64,000 bases of DNA, taken from an uncultured Candidatus Actinomarinales bacterium (GTDB lineage: Bacteria > Actinomycetota > Acidimicrobiia > Actinomarinales > Actinomarinaceae). The stretch covers positions 186,001-250,000 of the forward strand of contig CALSUY010000001.1 in NCBI GenBank assembly GCA_943840565.1, written 5' to 3'. This document shows positions 25,779-57,224 of this stretch, piece after piece (position 1 is the first letter of the stretch; each line of letters opens with the position of its first letter). The notes below the pieces were generated by a model that saw nothing but the letters and a program-made list of their open reading frames with translations, was not told the origin of the DNA and searched no databases. A program made the translations under genes and the position numbers.

Positions 25779-25852
25779 GGGCCTGTAGCTCAGTTGGTTA
25801 GAGCAACGGACTCATAATCCGTCGGTCGCAGGTTCGAGTCCTGCCGGGCCCA
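25779..25852 (+). tRNA. tRNA with CAT anticodon (elongator Met or Ile2)
   Basis: A complete 74-base cloverleaf. The acceptor stem GGGCCTG pairs with CGGGCCC (one G-U), the anticodon arm is ACGGA-CTCATAA-TCCGT with anticodon CAT, and the T arm is GCAGG-TTCGAGT-CCTGC. It is not an initiator by stem features. Distinguishing elongator methionine from lysidine-modified isoleucine tRNA needs a covariance model. It forms the left edge of the large polysaccharide island, which starts 13 bases later. Confidence 0.93.
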
Positions 25853-25865
25853 CTTGAAAACATTT

Positions 25866-27847
25866 ATGAACATTAAAAATATAAATGCTCGAACAATTGG
25901 ATTAGTATTTGCATCAACACTATTAATTCCCTCAAATTACGGATTAAATATTTTAGGATTGAACTTTGAAGACTTGCCCATAGTCGTTCTTTTTTTATTT
26001 CTATTTTATAAAAAAATAAATAATTACAATCCTATTTCAAACATCTGATAAAGTATTTTTATCATTATAATTTCATTTATTTTATACTCAAATATATTTA
26101 CTCAAGAATTTTGAAATATTTAATCAAACAAATTTAAGATTCTATTTCTATTTTATCTTCAGTTATTTGTGTGTTGATGTAGTTAGAGAAAATAAGGAAA
26201 GCTTAGTTACAGTTTTTGAACCACTCTCATACTGTCATGATTGCAAACTTTTTAGTTGTTCTATTTCAAGTTCAACTTCCTGGAACTATTGATGGATGGA
26301 TATTTAAATAATTCTGGTAGCACTAATATCTTTTACATCTGGAAGACTAGGAGGATTTCAAGGTGGTGGTCCAAATGTTATTGGAGTGATTTGTCTACTG
26401 TATGTACTTTTATGTATATATAAAGCTTCAAGTTCTGATAATATTTTGAAATATTTCCGTACAGACAAGTTAAATACATTATTACTTATTATTTCCTTTT
26501 TCAATCTTTACATTACATATTCAAGAGGTTCATATTTAGCATTATATGTCTGGTTTGCTTTTACTTCTCATCTATACAAGAGCAGTTACAGTAAATTCAA
26601 AATCTATTTTTTAATTATTTCAATACTTTTTTCTGTAGTTTCAATCTTTATATTCCCTTCAATTTTTTTGAAACAATCAAATAGAAGCTTCCTAAACAAT
26701 CTTGCTATCAATAATTTGGAGCTTTTTGAGGGAAGTGGTGGTGGTAACTATATTAAAGAGGTCTATAGAGATTATTTATTAGGGCTTGATGATGATGAAA
26801 TTTTAGAAAAATTTAATATAGTCTTATTCAGAAAAAGACAAAAAAATCATACTACGAATCAACCCAAAAAGAAATTGATCCAGCTGAAGGGTATTTAAAG
26901 CTGAAATTTGATTACAAAGATGGTGTACTTACCAAGGTCTATAATCTCTTTCTACCACTCTCAAAATGGTATTACTTGGTCACAGATTGGTTCTGAACAT
27001 ACAAATGGATCAGTTATTGAACTTATGAAGAATGATTCATATTTTGAAGTAGGAGGTTGGGGAGATGGACAATCTCCAGGAGACTCATATCTTGATGGTT
27101 TTATTAAGCAAGTAGATATCAGTTTTCTAGACAATATTTACAGTTACCAATTTATTGAAGAAAATAGAGATAAAGACTACTTTGTATACTTACCTACACG
27201 TACAGAATTTTATGACAATAGAAATGATGGAAAATTAGTTTACACAGAAGATGGTCTCAAGTTAAAAAGACCAAGAAGTTATTGGGTAGCAATTCCAAGC
27301 GAAGATAATATATCTCAACAAGACTTTGAAGTAGTAATACAACTTAAACTTAATCAACATTCCCAAAGGAAATGAAACAATATTTAGCCAAAGTTCAATT
27401 ATTAGTTCTTCAGATAATATCAACAACCAGTCATGGAAGTGGTCAATTATTGATGGAAGAATGTATTTCTTTTGGGTAGAAGATATCATTAGTGGGTATT
27501 CGAACTACCTTGGAGGACAAAGTCTTAGGTCTGGAAGACTAGTTGCTACTAATGGTCAGTTTGATTCAATTACTTCAGACTTTTCACTTTCCCAATATGA
27601 TGAAATAACTACTTCACATAATGGATTCTTGACAATGGCAGTCGAATATGGCTTATTTCCTGTAGTTCTTATCGTATTTAGCATATTGTTTCTAGTTGTC
27701 AAAAATGCAAATTACAAAAATCATTTTTTAATTACTATATTGGTAGCTTTATTAACTCAAAATCTTACTAATGATTTAATATATTCACCAGATGTAGCAA
27801 TTTATTTTTGGATAATTCCTAGCTATTTATTCTTAAAAAAAGATTAA
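25866..27847 (+). pseudogene. Wzy-like membrane polymerase with LamG-like insert, many frameshifts
   Basis: The membrane portion is recognisable as an O-antigen polymerase: TLLIPSNYGLNIL at the start, then TSGRLGGFQGGGPNVIGVI, matching KGRVNGFQAGGPNSYADLI of the intact protein at 38281, and a C-terminus SHNGFLTMAVEYGLFPVVLIV. Between about 26860 and 27560 lies a soluble segment with LamG/concanavalin-like features (SFYHSQNGITWSQIGSE, FEVGGWGDGQSPGDSYLDGFIKQVDI, then a second piece NQSWKWSIIDGRMYFFWVED). Reconstructed length is about 660 residues, some 260 longer than its paralogue. At least six shifts break it, with dense damage at 26050-26330. The membrane family is clear; the insert is inferred from fragments. 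It follows the tRNA by 13 bases and may share its transcript. Confidence 0.65.
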
Positions 27848-27850
27848 GAA

Positions 27851-28970
27851 TTAATTAATCCAATTCGTTTCTGCATAAGTAGAAAAGTTTTCAGAAATTA
27901 TTAGTACTCTGTCTTCCATCTTCAAGTTCATATGGCGAAGTTGGTATTGAAACTTTGTTGATACTGCTAAAGTCTATATTTCTCAAATTCCACAGTGTAT
28001 TTATAGCAGAGCTTAAAGTAAGATTTTCATCAATGATAAATGAATCCTCTAGGCATTAATAAAACTATTTAATTCAGTAAGTGATTCAAAGTCATTAAGT
28101 CTTTTCAATAGTTGCAATATAACATACTGCTGTCGTCTCATTCCTTGATAAGTCACTTACACCATCCATCTTTTTCCATTCTGATGCATCTTCACCATTT
28201 TCATCTAATATTTTTTCACCAACTAATATTTCAGTATTTCTGGATACGATCCAATTCAAGGCTGTAGATCCAGTTACTACTTGACATCCTTTTTGCAATT
28301 CGAAAGAGTACCCTTCTTTTTGTGTACTATCTACACAGATTTCAATTCCATTAAAAGAGTTAATAATATTCTCGAAACCCTCAAAATTAAAACTTGCAAA
28401 ATGATCTACTTGATACCCGTTAAGTTTTTTACTGCAGCAGCTAGGTTTTCAGCATTGTTCCCACATTTATTTTCTGAGTAAGATGCCATTTATTCTTTCA
28501 AGATTTTCTGTACAATGAGTTAACTATCAATGTGTCTCTAGGGATAGAAAGTAGGTAGTGTATTGCTTTCAGTTTCATCAATAAGACCTACTATGATAAC
28601 ATCTGCTCTTTGACCTTCAACAAAACCTCTTGATTCAGAAGAATTTTCATCTCTTTCATCACTACCAATCAAAAGATATGATTTGTATCCATCTATATCC
28701 TTCGTTAGCAATGTTGTTTATGAGTAATTTTTCAATTTCTGATTTCTCAATTCTGAATTATTTCAGGGTTCGAGGTTTAGTTTCATTCTTCCTCGATATT
28801 TTCTTCACTAAGAAGACTTGTAGTAGGAGTACAGACCCTCTGATATATTTTCTACTCTATCTGGATCAAATGCTTGTTTTTCAAATCTTGGAATAATCGC
28901 AAATATTACTATGAACTGCTGTACTAACTAGTCCTATAAATAAGTAAGTGTATTTATTTAAAATTTTCAT
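27851..28970 (-). pseudogene. LytR-CpsA-Psr (LCP) family glycopolymer ligase, many frameshifts
   Basis: Read on the minus strand, the fragments line up with an LCP protein of about 370 residues. A short cytoplasmic start MKILNKYTY leads into a membrane anchor, then YLLIGSDERDENSSE (family LLLGSDxR), RADVIIVGLIDET, the hallmark LSIPRDTLIVNS, VDHFASFNFEGFENIINSFNGIE, GYSFELQKGCQVVTGSTALNW and a late SINKVSIPTSPYELEDGR. LCP enzymes attach undecaprenyl-linked glycopolymers to peptidoglycan on the outer face of the membrane. That suits a Gram-positive-type wall and explains a WecA-type transferase next door. At least six shifts break the frame, most likely from consensus error. Start 28970 and the stop at 27851 are inferred from the reconstruction. 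Confidence 0.72.
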
Positions 28971-30769: not shown

Positions 30770-31882
30770 ATACATCCAATTCTTTGTAAATTTTCTCAAA
30801 TTGTGAAGCTATAACTTTAGAGGTATAAAACTCATCAATTAATTGTCTATTTTTTGAATGATCATTTGTTTCATTATATTTTTCAATATACTCCACAAAT
30901 TTGTCAATCTTGATTCAATTCAATTAATTCAAGATTATTAAACTCTTTCATCACTTCAGTGCCCTGAATCCTATAAGCTAAGCAGTAGAGACCAACGTAT
31001 AATGATTCAAGAAGTATTCTTGAAAACCCTTCATGTGATGACATTACAAGTGATATATCAAATTCAGACAGCTCTGTTTCTATATCAATCTTTCCTAAAT
31101 AATTTAGTTTTTCTTCATTTAAAACTATTTCCATGTCCTTGTCTGATAATATTTTGAGGATTACCTTCATCACGCTCACCAGCTAGGTAAAATTCAATAT
31201 TGTACCATATTGACTTGATTAACAATACTCAGGTAATCCATAATTCCTTTATCGTATAAAAGTCTTGAAACAAGGATGACTTTCTTTTTTGCTGGGTTAC
31301 TTGATGTAGATCTTTTTTTTTGAAATTGACTACTTTCAATCCCTGAACTAGGAATTACTTCTGTCTTATTTTCGAAAGTTTGAAAAATTAAGAAATATTT
31401 CTTTGTCTGATGTATTTTGAAATATAATCACGTTGATAGCATTATTGAAGAGGTAACCTATGAAGGGTTTTATTAGGTATCTTAATAATTTTGCTTTTGG
31501 GCTTCTTGCTAAATAAAAAACCAAGTCCTGTGACTGACAGCACAGCTTTATTTTTATTTTTCAGAAAGAGATTAGCTAAACAGAAAAGTATTCCAGTTTT
31601 TAATGTAAAGCAATGAAATTTGCTATCTACATTTTTTAAGTGACTTCTTAGAGAGAATATTGCTTTTATATCCAATATTTTATTTCTGTTTATTTCCCAC
31701 GATGACACACCTTTGTAGATTGATTCTATTTCCTCCCTGTGAACACCATTTGGACACATTGCATGGATTTCTTCCGATTGTATATACTTAACCAAATCTT
31801 TTCTAGATTTGTATAAAATCCAATCCCAATGAGATAAATAAGTTATCATTAACACCATTTTAAGTCTTAAATTTGTTAACAT
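30770..31882 (-). pseudogene. Glycosyltransferase family 4, several frameshifts
   Basis: The N-terminal 146 residues (31442-31882) read cleanly: SHWDWILYKSRKDLVKYI and AVLSVTGLGFLF match GT4 enzymes of the undecaprenyl-linked type. Further pieces are IPSSGIESSQF, VILVSRLLYDKGIMDYL, NFYLAGERDEGN, and LSEFDISLVMSSHEGFSRILLESLYVG, which carries the E-x7-E donor-site pattern. The C-terminal piece QLIDEFYTSKVIASQFEKIYKEL is a typical GT4 end. At least four shifts break the gene. It would add a sugar to the glycan begun by the WecA-type enzyme encoded just downstream on the same strand. Confidence 0.72.
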
Positions 31883-31890
31883 TGCCTAAT

Positions 31891-33090
31891 ATGAATTTAG
31901 TCGTCATAGGAACAGGTTATGTAGGCTTAGTTACAGGGGTTGGCTTTGCAAGTCTTGGCAACACTGTGAGCTTTGTTGATCTAGATGAAAACAAAGTTTC
32001 AAAACTTAAAGACAAACAAGTCCCATTTCTATGAACCTGGTCTTGAAGAACATTTTCAGGATAATGAAACATTCTCAAGAATGTCTTTCACATCTTCATA
32101 TGAAGAAATCGACTGGGAAGATCACAGATGTGGCATTTATCTGTGTACAAACCCCAAACAATCTTGAGACCAATTCTGTTGATACCAGATTTCTTGAATC
32201 TGCAATTACAGAGATAAACAACCTCAACAACCCAAAATTAGTTGTTACAGTAAAATCAACTATTCCTCCTTATGAAATTGAGAAAGTTTGTAATAAGGTA
32301 GGGATGGATAAAAACGAAATTACATTCAATCCTGAATTCCTCAGAGAAGGCACAGCTATTGAAGATTTTTTTCAACCTGACAGAATTGTAATAGGAGGGA
32401 ATGATCCCGAAAAAACTTTCCATTCTAAGAGAATTATACAAAGGCTTTGATGCAGAACTTATAGAGACTGATCCGATTAGTTCACAGCTTATTAAATATT
32501 TAGCAAACACATATTTACCTTTAAGGCTTTCATTTGTGAATGAAGCAGCAAGATTAATTGATCATTCTAATGGTAATCAGGTTGATGTTCTAAAGGGGGT
32601 TGGTTTAGATTCAAGAATTGGTTCGCATTACTTTAGACCATCTCCAGCTTGGGGAGGTTCTTGTTTTCCAAAGGATTTGATTGAAGTCAACAATTTTTAT
32701 AAAGAAGGTGAAGTTATGCTGCCTATAATCTCAAATATAATTGAATCAAATGATATTCAAACTAAATGGACTGTAAATAAATTAACATCAATACTCAGCA
32801 ATGAGAATATAAATTCAGTATTGTTGATTGGTGCTGCCTTTAAAGAAGATACCGACGATTTGAGAAATTCACCAACTTTAGATATCTATAAAATGTTAAT
32901 CCAAAAAGACGTAAATACTTTTATCTATGACGAAATGGTTGAACTTGCTGAATATAATTCAGTAGATAATCTTGATGATATTTCTGATAAAACTTTAGTA
33001 GTGCTGATGTATCCGATTAAGAAAGCACTTATGGAAAAAATTGAAACTATCTTAACTGAAACTAACTCTATTTTGTATACACCATGGTAA
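31891..33090 (+). pseudogene. ugd: UDP-glucose/UDP-sugar 6-dehydrogenase (Ugd family), two or more frameshifts
   Basis: Four-electron NAD-dependent oxidation of a UDP-hexose to the uronate. The start gives the Rossmann motif IGTGYVGLVTGVGFAS; later come DVAFICVQTPNN, VTVKSTIPPYEIEKV, NPEFLREGTAIEDFFQPDRIVIGG, and the catalytic cysteine in PSPAWGGSCFPKDL. AAFKEDTDDLRNSP is the C-terminal UDP-binding domain signature. Shifts lie near 32025-32100 and 32430. Reconstructed length is about 400 residues. Motif spacing resembles UDP-glucose dehydrogenases, and a UDP-glucuronate decarboxylase and a UDP-glucuronate 4-epimerase are nearby, consistent with UDP-glucuronate as product. The ATG is nine bases after a TAACAT. 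Confidence 0.85.
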
Positions 33091-33094
33091 AAAG

Positions 33095-34033
33095 ATGAAT
33101 ATTGTTTTAACAGGTGGATCAGGTTTTATAGGCTCGCATCTCTCTAAGGAGCTACTCAAAAATGGTGAAAACAAGTTAATTGTTGTAGATAATCTACTAA
33201 CTGGAAACCTAGACAATATTCAAGACTTATTAGATCATGAAAATGCAACATTTATCCAACATGACGTTCAAGATCATATAGAAATAGATGAAAAAGTTGA
33301 CTATGTATTTCATTTAGCAAGTGCCGCATCACCAGTTGCATATACGGAAAATCCAGTGAATACCTTAAAAGCTGGAAGCCTTGGAACAATAAACACTCTA
33401 GGTTTAGCTAGGAAGCATGGTGCTGAATATTTCTTGGCTTCTACCTCTGAGGTTTATGGAGACCCTCTAATTACTCCTCAAAATGAAGAATATTGGGGAA
33501 ATGTCAATCCAAACGGGGAAAGAAGCATGTATGATGAGGCAAAAAGATTTGCAGAGGCTGCAACAGCAACATATGCAAGAAGCTATGACATAAAGACCAA
33601 AATAATTAGGATATTCAACACCTATGGGCCAAACATGCAGCTAAACGATGGCAGGGTAGTCACAAATCTTATAGTACAGGCACTTAATGATGAAGATTTA
33701 ACTATTTATGGAGACGGCTCGCAAACTAGAAGTTTTTCCTATGTATCCGATACAGTGGCTGGAATTCTTGCAATGATGGAATCAAATCATTATGAAGTCT
33801 TTAATATCGGCAACCCTTATGAAATGACTGTTAAAGAATTAGCCGAGACAATATTAAAACTTACAAACTCGAAATCTGAGATAATTTATAAACCATTACC
33901 AAATGATGATCCCCAACAAAGAAGACCAGACATTAGTAAAGCTAAAGAAAAACTTAACTGGGAACCAAAAGTAGGCTTAGAAACCGGGTTGAATACAACT
34001 ATTGAATGGATAAAAAAAGAGTTATCTAAATAA
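33095..34033 (+). CDS. UDP-glucuronate decarboxylase (UDP-xylose synthase-like SDR)
   Basis: An intact 312-residue extended short-chain dehydrogenase. The NAD motif is GGSGFIG at 7-13. The family-specific blocks HLASAASPVAY and YGDPLITPQNEEYWGNVNP are those of UDP-xylose synthases, and the catalytic pair is Y146 and K150 in SMYDEAKR. It converts UDP-glucuronate to UDP-xylose through a keto intermediate; some relatives stop at the 4-keto sugar. It follows ugd by four bases, so the two make a short UDP-glucose to UDP-xylose route. The stop overlaps that of a convergent glycosyltransferase gene. Confidence 0.85.
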   Translation: MNIVLTGGSGFIGSHLSKELLKNGENKLIVVDNLLTGNLDNIQDLLDHENATFIQHDVQDHIEIDEKVDYVFHLASAASPVAYTENPVNTLKAGSLGTINTLGLARKHGAEYFLASTSEVYGDPLITPQNEEYWGNVNPNGERSMYDEAKRFAEAATATYARSYDIKTKIIRIFNTYGPNMQLNDGRVVTNLIVQALNDEDLTIYGDGSQTRSFSYVSDTVAGILAMMESNHYEVFNIGNPYEMTVKELAETILKLTNSKSEIIYKPLPNDDPQQRRPDISKAKEKLNWEPKVGLETGLNTTIEWIKKELSK

Positions 34034-35085
34034 CTTTTAATATTCTATGGTGTAAAGTTTTCAGTGACTCGTCTTTAACTTTTTCTTGTGAAAATTGAAT
34101 AATTTCTAAAAGTAAATCTTTTTCTAATTTAGAAATTAAATTTATACTTTTCGTTAAGTCATCTTTTGTACCATCAAACTTTAGAATGTTGATATATTCT
34201 GGATGAATATTTTTGTCATACTCTGAATTCATATAAAAATTAATAATTCCACCAGATAGTGTTTCAAGGACGCTCTTATCATAAAAACCCTTTGGAGTGT
34301 TATTGATGTGGAATCCAGTTTTATCTATATATGTACTTAAGTTCAGTATGAGGGACAGAACCGACAAATCTTATATTAGGATAGTTCAGAGTATTTATTT
34401 TTTAAGTAACTTTCATAATCAGCATCTTGTTTTGTTAGAGGTCCCCCCACGATTGTGATACTCTGCGACTCCCCGTAAACACTATTTAAAAAACCTTGAA
34501 TAGATTCCTCGATATTTTTTGATTTGGAAATCCTACTTAAGATGAGAAAATCTTTTGATCCTGTATTGATTCTACCTCTATAAAAATCTTCGTAGTTAAT
34601 GGCATGTCCAATAGAAGTTACTTTTTTAAACTCTTAAAGGAAATGAATTCTCTGAAGCTGTAATTATTCTATCTGAAAATAATGCGCCTAAATAGAGAAC
34701 AATCTTCTTTATAAAAGTAGTGGGACCCTTGTGTGTGTACCAAAGGATAGACTGCAGATTTTGAAATCTGAATATACTTGAACTTACTAATGTTAAGGAG
34801 GTTGTCATATGTGAGAGACAGTATCTATATTCATTATCTTTTAATAGGTTTTTGATGGTTTTTCTAAGTGCAATGAATTTTGTTATCTTATTTGTATTTA
34901 CAGAATCATGGCTGTATACATTTATATTGTCATTTAACATATGAGTTGCACCTTCATTTAATGTCACGACATCAATTTCTATATAATATTCAGATAATTG
35001 ATTTAGCCAATTTACTCGCAAATCCAAGTGAAGTATTGTTTGAGTCTGTAGATATATTAAAAATTAATATTTTCTCTTTTTTCAT
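34026..35085 (-). pseudogene. Glycosyltransferase family 4, several frameshifts
   Basis: Minus-strand fragments form a GT4 enzyme of about 350 residues. The start MKKEKILIFNISTD is followed in another frame by WLNQLSEYYIEIDVVTLNEGA, QSILWYTHKGPTTF and DRIITASENSF. Then come GHAINYEDF, LILSRISKSKNIEESI, SITIVGGPLTK, and a clean C-terminus from 34367 (GFYDKSVLETLSGG, SLKTLHHRILKVI). The HKGPTTF block and RISKSKNI block are typical GT4 sites. There are at least three shifts. Start 35085 and the stop at 34026 are inferred. Its stop overlaps the convergent decarboxylase gene. Confidence 0.65.
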
Positions 35086-36222
35086 AATTCTATTTTTTCA
35101 TTTTGTTGGAAAATTTCCATATATTGGTTTGCCTGTACTAAAAAATTATGTTTGTTACTAATGAATGCTTTTGCTGCATCAGCTCTTTTAGTTGCTTCAG
35201 CTTTATTTTCAATTATAAAGCTGATATTCTCAGCAATAACTTTCTTATCTGGGTGGTATGGGAATAATAAATCCACGCTCACCGTCATTTAACAAGTCTT
35301 TACAACCACCAGCTTCAGTACTTAATATAGGAACCTCATAATTAATTGCTTCCAGTACCGAATGGGGGAGACCTTCATAATCAGATGCTTGTATGAAGAT
35401 ATCTGCAGTAAGTAGAAATTGAGAGATTTTATTGTTATCAATTTTACCTAAAAGTTGAACTCGATTTTGTAAATTCAAATCATGTATTGCACTTTCTAAT
35501 TTACTGAACTCACCACCTTCACCAATTATGCTCAGTTTTAGGTTCTTATTATCTAGTAATTCCATTGCTTCTATAACTATGTTTATATTTTTCTGAACTA
35601 CTAATCTTGAAATAATTATTAAGTTGATATCGGCTTTACTCTACATTTGCCCTTTTAATATCTGTAATGTCAACTCCGTTATTTATTTTTAAAATTTTTT
35701 TGCTATAGCCTATTCCAGATACAAAACTTTTTAAATGATCAGACGGAGTAATTACTATTTCAGCAGAATTGATACTCCAGTTTCTAAGTAATTTTTGCAA
35801 CTTCAATTAGAAAAGAGTGTTTGTTGTTCTGAAACTCATCAAAAGACTCAGTCGTTCTTTTTTTGATTGTAAGCTCTTTCCCAGACGGGATCGCCCACAA
35901 TCTTTCTGATTAGTTGTTTCTTGAGTATGAGATTTGCTATTGCTGACTCAATGCCAAGCCCATTAACGAAAATCAGATCACTTCTTCTTCCATTTTTGAC
36001 GATTTGGTAAATTGTTTTTATCCAGCGAATAGGGAGACTGTTTGATCTTTTGATTCTTATTACATCTAAATTATCTTCAGTATGATTATTTCCAACTTCA
36101 GATAAACAAATAATTTTTACATTGTGACCATTCTCTATCAAGAAATCAGAAATTTTAGGAACAAAACTTGCTGGTCCGCCAATATCTGGAGGAAATATTC
36201 CTACAGTTATTAAAATGTTCAT
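35082..36222 (-). pseudogene. Glycosyltransferase family 4, several frameshifts
   Basis: The N-terminus (35848-36222) is clean: MNILITVGIFPPDIGGPASFVPKI and FVNGLGIESAI, a classic GT4 acceptor domain. The donor domain is readable as LKLSIIGEGGEFSKLESAI, LLGKIDNNKISQFLLTADIFIQASDYEGLPHSVLEAINYEVPI with the E-x7-E pattern, and EAGGCKDLLNDGERGFI. A short C-terminal piece ends FQQNEKIEL at 35082. At least four shifts lie between 35245 and 35850. The last four bases overlap the next glycosyltransferase start on the same strand, suggesting one operon running from 38204 down to 34026. Confidence 0.75.
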
Positions 36223-38280: not shown

Positions 38281-39483
38281 GTGCAATTATTAGTTAAAAA
38301 AATTAAAAGTCTTTCACCATTAAATATTCTATTTTTTATACCATTAATACCACACTTTAACATTATCGAAGACGTTCTCCATACTGATGACATACCTGTA
38401 TTACTATTTCTTATATTGTTTTTAACCAGAATTATGTCTTTATTTGATAACTTCAAACCAGTTAAAGGTTACCTTCTTATTGATTTTTTTATTTTGTACC
38501 TGTTAATTCAGAATATTTATCTTGGAAATGGTTTTTTTAATAACGAAATACTAAGGTTTGCATTTTATGCAATTATTTTCTTTTTTATCCTAGGAAATAA
38601 AATGGAAAGTTTCTATGAATATTTACCTGTATATCTTTTTATCTTATGTAGTAGTTTTTCAATTATTGCATATTTCTTTTCTATTAATTTAGGGACAGAT
38701 CTTTACAACAATTGGAATATAGGCCTAAATCTTAGTGATATCGACTACATCAAAGGCAGGGTTAACGGTTTCCAAGCAGGAGGTCCCAATAGTTATGCTG
38801 ATCTAATTGCTGTGACTGGAATCTATACAATTTTTAAATTAGAAGATAATTATTTTCCATACATTTCAAGCCTTGCGATTTTGGGATGTTTCTTTACATA
38901 CTCAAGATTTTCACTAATTGTATTAATTATTTTTATTATTCTCAGAGCTTTAAGCACCCAAAATAAAATGTTAAGTTTAGGCATTATTTTTGCCTCCATC
39001 TTAGTTTGTGCCAATTTTGGATTAATTGAGAGATTTAGCAATGATGATAATTCAGGTATCCAGGATAGAGTTGATATGAGTGTTGGAGCTGTGGAGTATT
39101 TACTTAATGATACACTTCTTAATAATCTCATTGGTAGGGGCCACGATAGTTTTATTGTCAGTGGAGATGAAATAATCAACAGTAATAAGTTCGATCAAAA
39201 TACAGTATCTTATGGTCCTCATAATTCTTTTTTATTCATTATTTTAAATTATGGAGTCTTTGGATTAATTTTGTATTTATTGATATTTAAAAATATAATT
39301 ACTTACACACTTAGATTAAAAACTTTATTTAACCTATCACCACATTTTTATGTAGTAGCTGCTTTTTTTGTTTTAAGTTTTTCTAGTGATCTATTACAGA
39401 ATCACAGTATTTCTTGGTATTTATACTTATCAAGCTTTCTTTTAATGAGAGAAATCAAAAATAAAGATTCTTTCGATGTTTAA
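38281..39483 (+). CDS. O-antigen polymerase-like membrane protein (Wzy-type)
   Basis: A 400-residue protein with about ten to twelve membrane segments. The central motif KGRVNGFQAGGPNSYADLI resembles Wzy_C-type polymerases, with an arginine near the membrane edge and a second loop SYGPHNSFLFIILNYGVFG; the PHNSFL block is the family's H-N-x-(F/Y) motif. It is the intact relative of the broken protein at 25866, which has an extra soluble insert. The start is GTG, close behind a TAGAAT element. The gene is alone between divergent and separately promoted units. Polymerase is the likeliest role; glycan ligase is the alternative. Confidence 0.68.
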   Translation: MQLLVKKIKSLSPLNILFFIPLIPHFNIIEDVLHTDDIPVLLFLILFLTRIMSLFDNFKPVKGYLLIDFFILYLLIQNIYLGNGFFNNEILRFAFYAIIFFFILGNKMESFYEYLPVYLFILCSSFSIIAYFFSINLGTDLYNNWNIGLNLSDIDYIKGRVNGFQAGGPNSYADLIAVTGIYTIFKLEDNYFPYISSLAILGCFFTYSRFSLIVLIIFIILRALSTQNKMLSLGIIFASILVCANFGLIERFSNDDNSGIQDRVDMSVGAVEYLLNDTLLNNLIGRGHDSFIVSGDEIINSNKFDQNTVSYGPHNSFLFIILNYGVFGLILYLLIFKNIITYTLRLKTLFNLSPHFYVVAAFFVLSFSSDLLQNHSISWYLYLSSFLLMREIKNKDSFDV

Positions 39484-43888: not shown

Positions 43889-45349
43889 ATGTGTGGAATA
43901 GGTGGAATTATTAACATTAATAATTCTAAAATTGACCCAGAAATTGCCAATAATATTAAAACCTCACTAGAGCATAGAGGGCCAGACAACTCTTCAATAA
44001 AACACATTTCAGAAACTGTCTCATTGGTCCATACAAGATTAGCCATCATTGATATAGACGATAGATCAAACCAACCATTTCATTCCGACGACAATCGTTA
44101 TTGGATAGTATTCAATGGAGAAATCTACAATTACAAAGAGATTAGAGAAGAACTCGAAAACAAAGGATACAGCTTTCATACATCTGGAGACACCGAGGTT
44201 TTGCTAAAAGGGTTTATATGTTACAAAGAAAAAATTCTAGATAAGCTCAGAGGGCAATTTGCTTTTGCTATATATGATTCAATTGAAAAAACTACATTTT
44301 TAGCTAGAGATAGGATTGGAATAAAACCTTTATATTTTTCAAAATATAAAGAATGGATAGTTTTCGGATCTGAAATGAAAACTATTGAATCCTCAAAATT
44401 AATACCATTCATTCCGGATACAGAATCATACATGACTTACATGAGACATTTATGTATCCCAGGAAGTAGTACTGGTAATAAAAATATTTCCAAAGTTAGA
44501 CCAGGAGAGTATGTTACTTTTTCTAAAAGTGGTGAAATTAAAACATATAAATACTGGGATCCGTTTAGTTTTGAAATAGATTACGAGATGAGTGAGAGTG
44601 ATGCAAGTGACGAATTAGAAAGACTACTTATTGAATCAGTGGAGTATAGAAAAGTAAGTGATGTTGAAGTTGGACTATTCCTTTCTGGTGGATTGGACTC
44701 CTCATTAATAGGGAAACTCATGAAGGCAGGTAGTCAAAGTAAATTGAAAGGTTTTAATATCGATTATGAGGAACACTTTGATGGCTACAAAGGGGAAGTA
44801 TCTGAGGCTGAATACGCATCATCAAATATTGATATAGAGTTAATTAAAGAAAAAATAGCATATAGAGACTTTAAAACTTTATTAAATAATTACTCAAACT
44901 ACCAAGATGATTTAAATGGTGACGAAGTTGGCATTCCTCTTTATTTTCTTGGAAAATCTGCAAGGTCGAAAGGAATTACAGTTGTTCAAGTTGGAGAAGG
45001 GGCTGATGAATTATTTTATGGTTACGAACATTGGCTTAGATATCTAAAACTTAATAGATTCATTAAGCCGATTATGAAAAATAATTCTAGAGTTTCAGGA
45101 TTTTCAAACCATAGGTTAAATTTGTTATCAAACATTATATTTAATCGAACATCTTTTCCGGGTGGAGCTTTAGGTTTCAATTTATCAGAGATCAATAGAC
45201 TTGTTGATGGAGGCATTTCAGAGAACCCATCTTCGTTACATTATGTTGCGGAACCTTCTAATTGCCTTTATATTCCTCTATCCTTTGACTGTAATTTTCA
45301 AAAGAGATTTTACTTTGACTTCATTATTTTTAATAGGTTTTGTAATTAA
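43889..45349 (+). CDS. asnB: Asparagine-synthase-like glutamine amidotransferase, C-terminus lost at a junction
   Basis: Cys2 of MCGIGGI is the N-terminal glutaminase nucleophile; HRGPDNSSIKH, NGEIYNYKEIRE and ARDRIGIKPLYF complete that domain. The synthetase PP-loop SGGLDSS is at 266-272, followed by EGADELFYGYEHW. In polysaccharide clusters such enzymes amidate uronic acids; adjacent uronate-making genes favour that role over asparagine synthesis. The protein should be about 600 residues or more, but homology stops at about residue 450. From roughly 45240 the reading is an out-of-frame copy of a flippase gene, so the true 3' end is missing. The stop at 45349 is incidental. Confidence 0.85.
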   Translation: MCGIGGIININNSKIDPEIANNIKTSLEHRGPDNSSIKHISETVSLVHTRLAIIDIDDRSNQPFHSDDNRYWIVFNGEIYNYKEIREELENKGYSFHTSGDTEVLLKGFICYKEKILDKLRGQFAFAIYDSIEKTTFLARDRIGIKPLYFSKYKEWIVFGSEMKTIESSKLIPFIPDTESYMTYMRHLCIPGSSTGNKNISKVRPGEYVTFSKSGEIKTYKYWDPFSFEIDYEMSESDASDELERLLIESVEYRKVSDVEVGLFLSGGLDSSLIGKLMKAGSQSKLKGFNIDYEEHFDGYKGEVSEAEYASSNIDIELIKEKIAYRDFKTLLNNYSNYQDDLNGDEVGIPLYFLGKSARSKGITVVQVGEGADELFYGYEHWLRYLKLNRFIKPIMKNNSRVSGFSNHRLNLLSNIIFNRTSFPGGALGFNLSEINRLVDGGISENPSSLHYVAEPSNCLYIPLSFDCNFQKRFYFDFIIFNRFCN

Positions 45350-46199
45350 TGAGTTGATACATGTTGCACTTGCATTTTATCAAGCCAATGGCGATTTTGT
45401 TACTAGTTCAAAGCAAATTGCTATTCGGACAATACTATACGGAATAGGTGCCTGGATTATAGTCATGGCTGGCTACCCAATAGTCTGGGTGATTGTATAC
45501 CAAGTTTTTGTATTAGCTATTTTCTTTGGAGTTGCACATTTTTCAATACGTGATAATTATAAAAATCCTAAAAATCATGACAAGAAAGATGTTAGAAATA
45601 AGCTATCAAAATCTGGACAAAAAATGGTGCTAACAACCTTTTCAAGTGCTCTTGTTTCAGAGCTGGATATAGTTTTACTAGGTTTATTTTTTGGGGGACC
45701 CTTACTAGGTGTACTATCTTGGGCTCGAAGAATACTTGAAATACTTTTTCAACTTGTAGCTGCAAGCCTAGATATACTTTTTCCACAACTTTCTAAGGTT
45801 AAGACCAGAGAAGAAGTTATGAATATAAGAAATACATTGAAGAAAGTATTCTTTGCATCTTTTATAATCCCAATTTCATTTTATTTCCTTAGGAACTTTG
45901 CAAGTAGCATCTTTGTTCTCCTTTTAGGTGATGAATTTTCAACTGTTGCTGAGTACACTTCTTATATCTTGTTTTGTCTACCTCTTATGGTGTGGTCAAG
46001 AATAAATATAATTTTCGCAAGAGCCTTAAATTTTGAGATCAATCTTTCAAAAATTATATTTTTAGCTTCAATGATTTCATTGTCAATTTATTTTATTACT
46101 AATCAAATTCTTCAAAACTCAGCTGTAGTTTCTATCATCTTATCTCAAATAACAATTTCAGCTCTTACATCTTATAGTTTCAGGAATTCTTACAAATGA
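45240..46199 (+). pseudogene. Polysaccharide flippase (Wzx-like), N-terminus missing
   Basis: About 320 residues with eight or nine membrane segments. Segments such as KMVLTTFSSALVSELDIVLLGLFFGGPLLGVLSWAR and EFSTVAEYTSYILFCLPLMVWSRINIIFARALN match the later part of Wzx/MVF flippases. The usual first 100-150 residues are missing: upstream, the sequence is the asparagine-synthase-like gene in another frame. The open frame itself begins at 45201, but the homologous part starts near 45240-45260 (NLLIAFIFLYPLTVIF). A deletion or misjoin of roughly a kilobase between the two genes explains both truncations. Its stop overlaps the start of the heparinase-like gene by four bases. Confidence 0.7.
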
Positions 46200-47842
46200 G
46201 AAGATACTTAAGAAAATTTAAATACGAAATTAATAATCTTTTTAAAAAACCTCCACTCATACCTGATAACTTTGATCAAGGAAAATGGAAAGATAAATCA
46301 CAAGTTTTTGACTTGTTAGGGGCAATAGGTAAAGACTTAACTCAAGATTTAAATCTTATTGATATGAAAATATTTGGAGAATCTGTAAATAATAGTTGGA
46401 TTGTCGGTACAGATTTTTTTAAGGGCTACGACTTCTCCAATAGAAAATTAAAGCCTGCCTTTTTCAATATTGCAGATGTAAAAGTGCCCTACGAAGCTTC
46501 GAGGTTGCAACACCTACAAAAACAGAATTTAATTAGCTCTATTGATGCTATGAAGGCACTAGATTCCGAAGCTTTTGTAGTTAAAGTAGATAAATTTCCC
46601 CTAATTTACTGGAATAGTCCCATGGATGTTGCAATCCGCCTAATTAATCTAATAATTCACAGACAGTTTCTTGCTCATAAAAGTAATAGATCTATAATTT
46701 TTGACAATAGTGAAGAATTACTTGATGCTTATATTTCCCAGAATTATCAATATGTAAAAGATAACCTAGAGAATGAGGGCAATGTTGTTGGAAACCATTA
46801 CCTAATAGAACTTTCAGCCATGTTATTTTTTCTTGCTAACTATGAAACTAAAAATAGTGTGATTGATACTGAATTCGTACTTTCAGAATTAGAAAATGAA
46901 ATAACAAATCAGTTTAACGAAGAAGGAACAAATTTTGAAGGTTCTACACATTACGCTGCTTTCGTAACTGAAGCATTGATACTATGCAAAATTTCCATGC
47001 AAGATCTAGATAAAACTTCAGATATTTCATCAGTGATAGATAAATTAATTCTACTAAATAAGAAATTTTTAGAATTGTTAATTATTGATGGTGAATTGTC
47101 ACAAATTGGAGATAATGATTCTGGAAGAATATTTTATTTTGCATTTGAAGAAGAAAAACCGCTAAAGCTTACTTGGTTAATAAAACTGATTGAAAGTCTT
47201 GAAATTAATGAAAATTTAATTATTAATAAAAATAATAATATGAATGAAGTGTCAAAAGAAATTCCAAATTTAAAAGACTACAAACATGTGAAGCATCCAG
47301 AAATAAAATTATTTTCAAAAGATTATCAATCATACGCATACCCAGAGTTTGGGATTTTTATTTGGAGGAATGACTCTGAATATTTAAGTATTAGATGTGG
47401 ACCCGTTGGACAAAATGGAGTAGGAGGTCATTCACATTATGATCAGTTGTCTATTGAATGTTTTACAGATAATAAGTGGATAGCTAGAGATCCAGGAACA
47501 GGTACTTACACAGATGATATTTCTACTAGAAATAAATTTAAATCTTTAGAGTATCACTGGGGCCCTAATCTCAATATTAAGTTTAAAAAAGAAGATGAAT
47601 TTGATTGCTTCAAAATAAATAATATGACTAATGGAAATGTGTTAACTTTTAATATGGAAAATTTTCTTGGGGTAGTTGAATTTAATGGAAGTAAGATATA
47701 TAGGGAAATAAAACTAGATGATGGAATACTTTCAATTCAGGACTTTTCAAAATTACAAAGATTACAACCATACGACTCTTGGGGAGAAAAAACTAGTGGT
47801 ATCAAAAATAAATTTTCAGAAGGGTATAAAAGATTTAGTTGA
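46196..47842 (+). CDS. Heparinase II/III-family polysaccharide lyase-like protein
   Basis: A 548-residue protein. The N-terminal alpha-helical toroid includes YWNSPMDVAIRLINLI, GNHYLIELSAMLFFLANY and FNEEGTNFEGSTHYAAFVTEA, a highly typical block. The C-terminal beta-sandwich has GHSHYDQLSIECFTDNKWIARDPGTGTYT. These are the conserved regions of heparinase II/III (lyase families PL12/PL15/PL21-like). Such genes often sit in exopolysaccharide clusters, where they may trim or release uronate-containing polymer. No signal peptide is seen, which leaves the location unclear. It overlaps the flippase start-to-stop and the next polymerase gene by four bases each. Confidence 0.85.
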   Translation: MRRYLRKFKYEINNLFKKPPLIPDNFDQGKWKDKSQVFDLLGAIGKDLTQDLNLIDMKIFGESVNNSWIVGTDFFKGYDFSNRKLKPAFFNIADVKVPYEASRLQHLQKQNLISSIDAMKALDSEAFVVKVDKFPLIYWNSPMDVAIRLINLIIHRQFLAHKSNRSIIFDNSEELLDAYISQNYQYVKDNLENEGNVVGNHYLIELSAMLFFLANYETKNSVIDTEFVLSELENEITNQFNEEGTNFEGSTHYAAFVTEALILCKISMQDLDKTSDISSVIDKLILLNKKFLELLIIDGELSQIGDNDSGRIFYFAFEEEKPLKLTWLIKLIESLEINENLIINKNNNMNEVSKEIPNLKDYKHVKHPEIKLFSKDYQSYAYPEFGIFIWRNDSEYLSIRCGPVGQNGVGGHSHYDQLSIECFTDNKWIARDPGTGTYTDDISTRNKFKSLEYHWGPNLNIKFKKEDEFDCFKINNMTNGNVLTFNMENFLGVVEFNGSKIYREIKLDDGILSIQDFSKLQRLQPYDSWGEKTSGIKNKFSEGYKRFS

Positions 47843-54283: not shown

Positions 54284-55754
54284 AGATGAAGTTAAGTCAC
54301 TCTTGTATTATTTAGACATAATTTATAAAGATGTGTTCCTTGATGTTGAAAAAGAAATCAAAGTAAAACTATACAAACAGAGCCCATTCTTACTCTCGGT
54401 TCCTGGGTCGGTGGTGATAGAGATGGAAATCCGTTTGTAACTAAAAAAATTACAGATCAGTCTCTAAAAATATATTCAAAACAAATAATCAATATTTACA
54501 TGGATAAGATAAAAGATTTCTCTGAAGAGTTTAGCTTTTCAACAAGTTACTTAACTACTCCAAAAAAGTTAGAAAATAAAATTCAAGAATATAGAAAAAT
54601 TCTTAAAAAAGAATATAACCATTATGCAAAAGTCAATTTTGATGAGCCTTTTAGGATTTTTCTTTCCTTAGTTTTCCATCGTTTGGAAAATTTTCAAGAA
54701 AATAATATAGGATATAAAACTTATGAAGAGTTTCATAAGGATATGGAACTTGTCAACGATTCACTTAAGCAAACTCTAAAATTAAATGATTCGATACATG
54801 GCTTTTCTGAATTCCTTAAATATGTTGAATCTTTTCAATTTCATGGTGTCACTCTAGATATAAGAGAAAATTCTAAAGTAATAAATAACCCACAATCAAA
54901 CAAACAACAATATGGAGAGTTTATAAAAGTTTTGGCTTGTATTTCAGATTGGAAAGCTATTTATGGAAGCAATGTTATAAATTCACTTATAGTTTCTATG
55001 ACAAAAAATGAATCAGACATATTAAATTTATATAAACTTTGCAAGAAATATATAACTTCTCAAAAAGATATTCCTATGATTGTACCGTTACTTGAAGAGA
55101 TTGATGATTTACAAAACTCAGATTATTTTCTAAACAACCTGTTGTCAAATAAAGCTTATAAAACTCACATTATAAAATATCAAGACTCTACTCAGGAAAT
55201 AATGCTTGGATACTCAGATTCCAATAAAGATGGTGGAATTATATCTTCCCAGTGGAATGTTTATAAAGCACAGATTGCACTATTTAAAAAAGGAAAAGAT
55301 CATAATTGTAATATAGTTTTCTTTCATGGCAGAGGGGGGACCATTAGTCGTGGTGGTGGACCTACATATAACTCTATACTTTCTCAACCCAGAGGAACAA
55401 TATCTAATCAAATACGCTACACAGAGCAAGGTGAGGTTATTTCTGATAAGTACTCAACAGCTAATCTAGCAAAAGAGAACTTAAAATTAGGTTTAGACGC
55501 TTTTCTCTCGGCTAGTTCTACCACTTTAAAAAATAATAAAGATGAATATTTATTGATTGAGGAACTATCGAAAGTATCATTTAAAAAATATCAAGAATTA
55601 ATCACAGATGATAATCTTATGATTTATTTTGAAAAAGTTACACCAGTAAATCTTCTATCGACTCTAAATATAGGCTCTAGGCCCTCTAAAAGAACCTCTG
55701 AGAGCACAATAGACAGCTATAGGGCGATTCCGTGGGTTTTTGGTTGGGCACAGA
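54284..55754 (+). repeat. Tandem duplication within ppc, copy 1
   Basis: A direct repeat of 1471 bases, joined to copy 2 at a three-base shared AGA. I counted about 12 substitutions and two one-base indels between copies, under 1% divergence. It starts inside the codons for LDEVKSLLYYL and ends after WVFGWAQ. Confidence 0.95.
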
Positions 55755-57224
55755 TGAAGTTAAGTCACTCTTGTATTATTTAGACATAATTTATAAAGAT
55801 GTGTTTCTTGATGTTGAAAAAGAAATACAAAGTAAAACTATACAAACAGAGCCTATTCTTACTCTCGGTTCCTGGGTCGGTGGTGATAGAGATGGAAATC
55901 CGTTTGTAACTAAAAAAATTACAGATCAGTCTCTAAAAATATATTCAAAACAAATAATTAATATTTACATGGATAAGATAAAAGAATTCTCTGAAGAGTT
56001 TAGCTTTTCAACAAGTTACTTAACTACTCCAAAAAAGTTAGAAAATAAAATTCAAGAATATAGAAAAATTCTTAAAAAAGAATATAACCATTATGCAAAA
56101 GTCAATTTTGATGAGCCTTTTAGGATTTTTCTTTCCTTAGTTTTCCATCGTTTGGAAAATTTTCAAAAAAATAATATAGGATATAAAACTTATAAAGAGT
56201 TTCATAAGGATATGGAACTTGTCAACGAGTCACTTAAGCAAACTCTAAAATTAAATGATTCGATACATGGCTTTTCTGAATTCCTTAAATATGTAGAATC
56301 TTTTCAATTTCATGGTGTCACTCTAGATATAAGAGAAAATTCTAAAGTAATAAATAACCCACAATCAAACAAACAACAATATGGAGAGTTTATAAAAGTT
56401 TTGGCTTGTATTTCAGATTGGAAAGCTATTTATGGAAGCAATGTTATAAATTCACTTATAGTTTCTATGACAAAAAATGAATCAGACATATTAAATTTAT
56501 ATAAACTTTGCAAGAAATATATAACTTCTCAAAAAGATATTCCTATGATTGTACCGTTACTTGAAGAGATTGATGATTTACAAAACTCAGATTATTTTCT
56601 AAACAACCTGTTGTCAAATAAAGCTTATAAAACTCACATTATAAAATATCAAGACTCTACTCAGGAAATAATGCTTGGATACTCAGATTCCAATAAAGAT
56701 GGTGGAATTATATCTTCCCAGTGGAATGTTTATAAAGCACAGATTGCACTATTTAAAAAAGGAAAAGATCATAATTGTAATATAGTTTTCTTTCATGGCA
56801 GAGGGGGGACCATTAGTCGTGGTGGTGGACCTACATATAACTCTATACTTTCTCAACCTAGAGGAACAATATCTAATCAAATACGCTACACAGAGCAAGG
56901 TGAGGTTATTTCTGATAAGTACTCAACAGGTAATCTAGCAAAAGAGAACTTAAAATTAGGTTTAGACGCTTTTCTCTCGGCTAGTTCTACCACTTTAAAA
57001 AATAATAAAGATGAATATTTATTGATTGAGGAATTATCGAAAGTATCATTTAAAAAATATCAAGAATTAATCACAGATGATAATCTTAATGATTTATTTT
57101 GAAAAAGTTACACCAGTAAATCTTCTATCGACTTTAAATATAGGCTCTAGGCCCTCTAAAAGAACCTCTGAGAGCACAATAGACAGCTATAGGGCGATTC
57201 CGTGGGTTTTTGGTTGGGCACAGA
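55752..57224 (+). repeat. Tandem duplication within ppc, copy 2
   Basis: A direct repeat of 1473 bases, the second copy of the segment at 54284. It carries the correct reading at the first indel (EIQSKTIQTEPILTLG) but an extra A at about 57089 that stops the frame (DDNLNDLF). Confidence 0.95.

Follow-up and report, generated by a model that had tools for sequence, protein, structure and literature searches.

A predicted circularly permuted LamG-type domain within the catalytic loop of a Wzy_C-type polymerase of Candidatus Actinomarina

In a window of 64,000 nucleotides (the whole stretch of DNA analysed) from an uncultured Candidatus Actinomarinales bacterium, a gene was identified that appears to encode an integral-membrane glycan polymerase of the Wzy/WaaL (Wzy_C) superfamily, within which polymerases and ligases are inseparable from sequence. 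The enzyme family is known, and the new element is a putative lectin-type domain that is inserted in the catalytic loop and whose two halves occur in swapped order. The features of the locus, with the evidence for each, are as follows.

25779-25853, plus strand: tRNA-Met directly before the polymerase gene; edge of an envelope-polysaccharide island (ARAGORN)
25866-27847, plus strand: Wzy_C-type polymerase gene with a predicted internal lectin-type domain, frameshifted in the assembly (Wzy_C matches, open frames of congeners)
25866-26751, plus strand: N-terminal membrane part, predicted helices 1-9, reaching to the conserved external-loop motif GxGGGxY (model of the intact relative P0001, charges, alignment)
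26752-27607, plus strand: predicted extracytoplasmic insert, 285 residues in P0001 (alignment, paralogue comparison, charges)
26886-27123, plus strand: probable C-terminal half of a LamG/ConA-type domain, placed first (canonical LamG profile 133-170, P 9e-5; tblastn match to phage Shoya)
27064-27075, plus strand: DGQS loop, candidate ligand rim (invariant in 27 polymerases; putative ligand role)
27124-27276, plus strand: probable linker that connects the native C terminus of the domain to its native N terminus (plateau of the rotation scan for any cut here)
27277-27547, plus strand: probable N-terminal half of the LamG/ConA-type domain, placed second (canonical LamG profile 31-94, P 4e-5)
27608-27847, plus strand: C-terminal membrane part, predicted helices 10-12 (model, charges)
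27617-27622, plus strand: catalytic-type His-Asn of the SHNGFL motif (invariant in 27 relatives)
27869-28970, minus strand: convergent gene for an LCP (LytR_cpsA_psr) wall-polymer ligase, frameshifted here (Pfam E 5e-25, intact relative)

The polymerase gene begins 12 bases past the tRNA-Met, and its window copy is split by frameshifts into several open reading frames. The LamG-like fragments that the initial annotation had reported between Wzy membrane parts were all found: NGITWSQIGSE, FEVGGWGDG, and LDGFIKQVDI share one frame (26908-27375), SWKWSIIDGRMYFFW lies just downstream in another frame, and weak Wzy_C matches flank the fragments on both sides (26386-26898, E 4e-6; 27461-27847, E 0.011). 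Comparison with the nearest intact relative revealed 16 indels in the window polymerase, all of them frameshifting, and 14 frameshifting indels in the LCP neighbour, with 0-1 in glyS, uppS, and dnaG. Of the 194 substitutions in the polymerase, 123 were at third codon positions. Identity to the nearest relative (G027) was approximately 98% upstream and approximately 90% between about 26000 and 31500, a segment dense in indels; identity rose again at 31500-34000 and fell once more at 34000-36000. The two drops look like recombining segments of the envelope island. Because the neighbouring genes are also broken and third-position substitutions are still favoured, the broken stretch of the polymerase is probably unpolished sequence inside a recombining island rather than a product of decay, in a genome represented by a bin of 0.64 Mb and 70% completeness.

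Intact copies were found in related genomes. In 17 congeners (Candidatus Actinomarina), the short form of the gene was one full-length open frame of 675-687 codons with no internal stops, which places the insert in frame within the polymerase rather than in a separate gene, an outcome that the initial annotation had left to frame correction. The nearest intact relative, P0001, has 660 amino acids and is 85% identical to the window copy. The insert comprises 280-285 residues in the short form, and the paralogue at 38281 has approximately 22 residues at this position, in line with the earlier estimate of about 260 missing residues. Moreover, 29 columns of the insert were invariant across 27 sequences of the genus, by which a chance insert is excluded. 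The polymerase with the insert was detected in 31 of the 42 genus genomes, and the convergent LCP gene was present in exactly those 31; the 353 other genomes of the class yielded no match to the polymerase with the insert. In the GTDB collection, the named copies belonged to Candidatus Actinomarina/OCS155, with two exceptions labelled only Acidimicrobiia and Actinomycetota. Gene loss in the other 11 congeners was considered and found unsupported, as those bins also had no LCP neighbour, and the joint absence of both genes is expected if the island was not binned. Across 14 species pairs, dN/dS was 0.075-0.160 for the insert versus 0.068-0.177 for the membrane part, showing that the insert is under purifying selection with a constraint equal to that of the membrane part. 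A pseudogene was rejected for the genus on the basis of the open frames in 17 congeners and the low dN/dS.

For the membrane enzyme, an AlphaFold model built with 27 relatives (mean pLDDT 80, pTM 0.74) predicted twelve helices, with the insert placed between helices 9 and 10 and between the GxGGGxY and SHN motifs. The charge pattern fits the positive-inside rule if the N and C termini lie inside and the insert lies outside, and the insert is thus, by model and charge distribution, assigned to the outer side of the membrane. Motifs typical of Wzy_C polymerases and ligases (SRGS, NR, GxGGGxY, and TTxHNG) were conserved, and R219, R272, H583, N584, and G594 were invariant in 27 sequences; the His-Asn pair is presumably catalytic and the motifs presumably act as they do in WaaL/Wzy_C enzymes. 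The short form scored 27-31.1 bits against PF04932 (Wzy_C), compared with a curated cut-off of 31.7, each piece falling below the cut-off because the insert splits the model. In a survey of Wzy_C proteins of Actinomycetota, which favours insert-free members, the span was at most about 190 residues among the matches listed, and inserts of 280-285 residues appear not to be common among well-matching members.

The insert is best described as a circularly permuted LamG/concanavalin-type domain with its C-terminal half first, as demonstrated by profile comparison. A LamG reference alignment of 16 domains (13 from phages and 3 from genomes of the phylum) gave two crossed local matches with the insert in its native order, residues 129-196 aligning with LamG 31-94 (P 4e-5) and residues 21-57 with LamG 133-170 (P 9e-5). 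With the halves swapped, a single collinear match over 125 columns was obtained (P 2.3e-9). When the insert was turned in 8-column steps against the LamG profile, the score reached a plateau of 66-67 for cuts in the linker versus 39.5 in native order, and the controls gave 29.1 (best of 150 column shuffles) and 11.9 (reversed). Given the swapped order, the native termini would be joined by the linker, and a former internal loop would connect the domain to the membrane part. The phage tail LamG set was decisive for the assignment of LamG kinship at the profile level, and comparison with Laminin_G_3 domains of the same class (hhalign) added modest support (P 0.0012 and 0.02). The proposal of two LamG modules was rejected, as both halves form one domain. 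Thus, of the one or two modules outside the membrane suggested by the initial annotation, the LamG/concanavalin type, the external location, and the Wzy_C-type host enzyme stood, and the number was settled as a single domain with permuted halves.

The structural comparison pointed the same way. The AlphaFold model predicted approximately 14 strands in the insert with moderate confidence, and Foldseek retrieved concanavalin A (ConA) with the short-form model (E 0.016, prob 0.98, TM 0.35) and ConA plus Dioclea (Diocleinae) lectins with the long-form model (E 0.16 and higher, low TM-scores). The jelly-roll type of fold proposed at the outset is made plausible by the profile match after rotation and by the retrieval of ConA. 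Circular permutation is a property of ConA and the Dioclea lectins among the legume lectins, and the Foldseek matches listed for either model contained none of the remaining legume lectins. The Pfam LamG model matched neither the native nor the rotated insert, and searches of Pfam, NCBIfam, and PDB sequences with the protein and the insert returned no family for the insert, nor did Pfam after re-permutation; this Pfam miss is partly explained by the permuted halves. A weak match to phrog_32846 (PHROG, unknown function) covered the linker and second half (E 2e-4). With the re-permuted profile, nothing was found outside the window genome among 297 genomes of the phylum, nor in viral contigs or plasmids. 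The only phage match of the first half was the tail fibre of Arthrobacter phage Shoya (tblastn E 1e-3; 50,697 records), whose LamG domain is in canonical order, and the DGQS loop was missing from the phage LamG sequences compared. The closest relatives found of the insert were LamG-like domains in tail proteins of actinophages and Cellulophaga phage, annotated as hydrolase, pectate lyase, tail fibre, or minor tail protein. It is possible that the insert and the phage tail LamG domains share a common glycan target. LamG folds bind proteins too.

At the same locus, 11 congeners carried a long form with 426-445 inserted residues (10 measured), in which some 150 cysteine-rich residues come ahead of the same permuted domain. 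The long form as a duplicated LamG was rejected, since the extra segment is cysteine-rich, helical, and SLH-like. Compared with SLH repeats of the same class by hhalign, this segment matched at two places (P 1.6e-4 and 4.8e-4; control P 0.27), a third SLH repeat is only suggested, and PF00395 (SLH) gave no Pfam match in the long form. A second soluble module is thus a property of these other congeners only and not of the window gene. SLH domains bind wall polymers, and the SLH-like module accordingly fits a glycan-facing role.

With regard to the neighbourhood, a tRNA-Asn/tRNA-Met pair preceded both forms of the polymerase in the 11 relatives checked. An envelope-polysaccharide island (fGI1), with tRNAs as hot spots and with variation even within species, has been described for the order (PMC7771536), and the word "polymerase" is absent from the text of that paper (PMC7771536). 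The polymerase locus appears to be the edge of fGI1, making the polymerase a constant gene at the edge of an otherwise variable envelope island in a widespread marine genus. The glycan cluster of the window also holds a Heparinase II/III-like protein (46196-47842), an asparagine-synthase-like amidotransferase (43889-45349), and a weak Wzx-flippase-like protein (45201-46199, NCBIfam E 0.0025) as the candidate flippase of the cluster. Farther downstream, a phosphoenolpyruvate carboxylase match extends over two overlapping open reading frames (54500-57102), probably owing to one more frameshift. The Wzz co-polymerase, searched for with the one Pfam model PF02706, was detected in none of the 42 genus genomes and in 10 of 14 control genomes, and a diverged or unrelated co-polymerase could exist in the genus.

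The reading that we tentatively prefer, at a little under an even chance, is that the enzyme polymerises a wall glycan and keeps hold of the growing chain through a lectin-type module of its own. The enzyme would make a cell-wall polysaccharide in Candidatus Actinomarina, with the permuted domain sitting above the active site, in the external catalytic loop just before the catalytic His-Asn. The domain may bind the growing lipid-linked chain, perhaps via the rim with the invariant DGQS loop, so that the bound chain would stay engaged for further transfers, giving processivity or length control and performing part of the job done elsewhere by a separate Wzz co-polymerase. The neighbouring LCP ligase would then receive the finished chain and attach it to the wall. 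The presence of the domain in every relative with a recovered locus suggests an enzyme gripping its own product. A bolder version, in which the permuted lectin grips the nascent chain, sets its length, replaces Wzz throughout the genus, and descends from a common ancestor with the phage tail-fibre domains, is conceivable but doubtful.

Several other explanations were weighed against the chain-holding module. The permuted LamG domain, together with the SLH-like module of the long form, may instead bind peptidoglycan, wall polymer already in place, or the LCP ligase and thereby hold the polymerase where the wall is assembled, without control of the growing chain; the wall-polymer binding known for SLH domains and the perfect co-occurrence and adjacency with LCP speak for such docking, but a site inside the catalytic loop beside the His-Asn would be odd for a mere anchor, anchors usually being terminal, and we consider docking rather unlikely. 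Slightly less probable still is a structural lid or substrate-specificity module that would rest against the membrane core and mould the acceptor or donor site, with no lectin-like binding of the chain. Its insertion between two motifs of the catalytic loop and a constraint equal to that of the membrane part are consistent with such a lid, yet the conserved exposed-type DGQS loop and the kinship with phage tail domains fit a ligand role better, and the lid comes without a resolved interface.

An O-antigen-ligase-like transferase of the WaaL type, in which the domain would recognise the acceptor, is compatible with a Wzy_C family that includes polymerases and ligases alike. The twelve helices and the large external loop that precedes the His are likewise reminiscent of WaaL. 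This transferase is nevertheless very unlikely, given that these Actinobacteria show no evidence of an outer membrane (PMC7771536) and that the neighbouring LCP protein is the expected ligase. Finally, the 16 frameshifting indels of the window copy might be taken to mean that the insert is assembly noise or part of a decaying gene, which is scarcely credible in view of the uninterrupted frames in 17 congeners, the low dN/dS, the breakage of neighbouring genes, and the excess of third-position substitutions.

An open question is what keeps Wzy-type polymerases bound to their substrate and sets the length of their chains, and PMC12502699 states that a high-resolution structure of Wzy had yet to become available when that paper was written. 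A catalytic loop that carries a fused soluble domain offers a direct handle on that question. Like the initial annotation, which knew of no polymerase with this layout, we found no description of one whose catalytic loop carries a lectin-type domain in the literature searched, mostly outside subscription journals. The locus also provides a case, documented by sequence, in which a LamG-type domain within a membrane enzyme is circularly permuted and goes unrecognised by Pfam, and domain searches may therefore miss other such inserts.

Compared with known systems, the long form resembles the SLH domains (PF00395) of Acidimicrobiia in its repeat pattern at two places, but the pattern is degenerate and lies inside a polymerase loop. 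With the Wzz/PCP co-polymerases (PF02706), only the proposed role of extracytoplasmic control of polymerisation would be shared; these are separate proteins without kinship in sequence or fold, whereas the domain described here is part of the enzyme. The ConA/Dioclea lectins, retrieved with both models, would share a beta-sandwich and the same kind of permuted order, but they are plant proteins, Foldseek scores are weak, and the likeness stops short of demonstrated sequence kinship. The tail-fibre LamG of Arthrobacter phage Shoya (gp25) and its relatives is the same domain by profile once rotated, although its strands are in canonical order rather than with swapped halves, the DGQS loop occurs only in the polymerase, and a virion protein there contrasts with a host membrane enzyme here. 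With the Wzy/WaaL superfamily (PF04932), the enzyme has in common the twelve helices, the external loop between helices 9 and 10, and the SRGS, NR, GxGGGxY, and HN...G motifs, and it differs in the 280-285 (or 426-445) extra residues carried in its catalytic loop.
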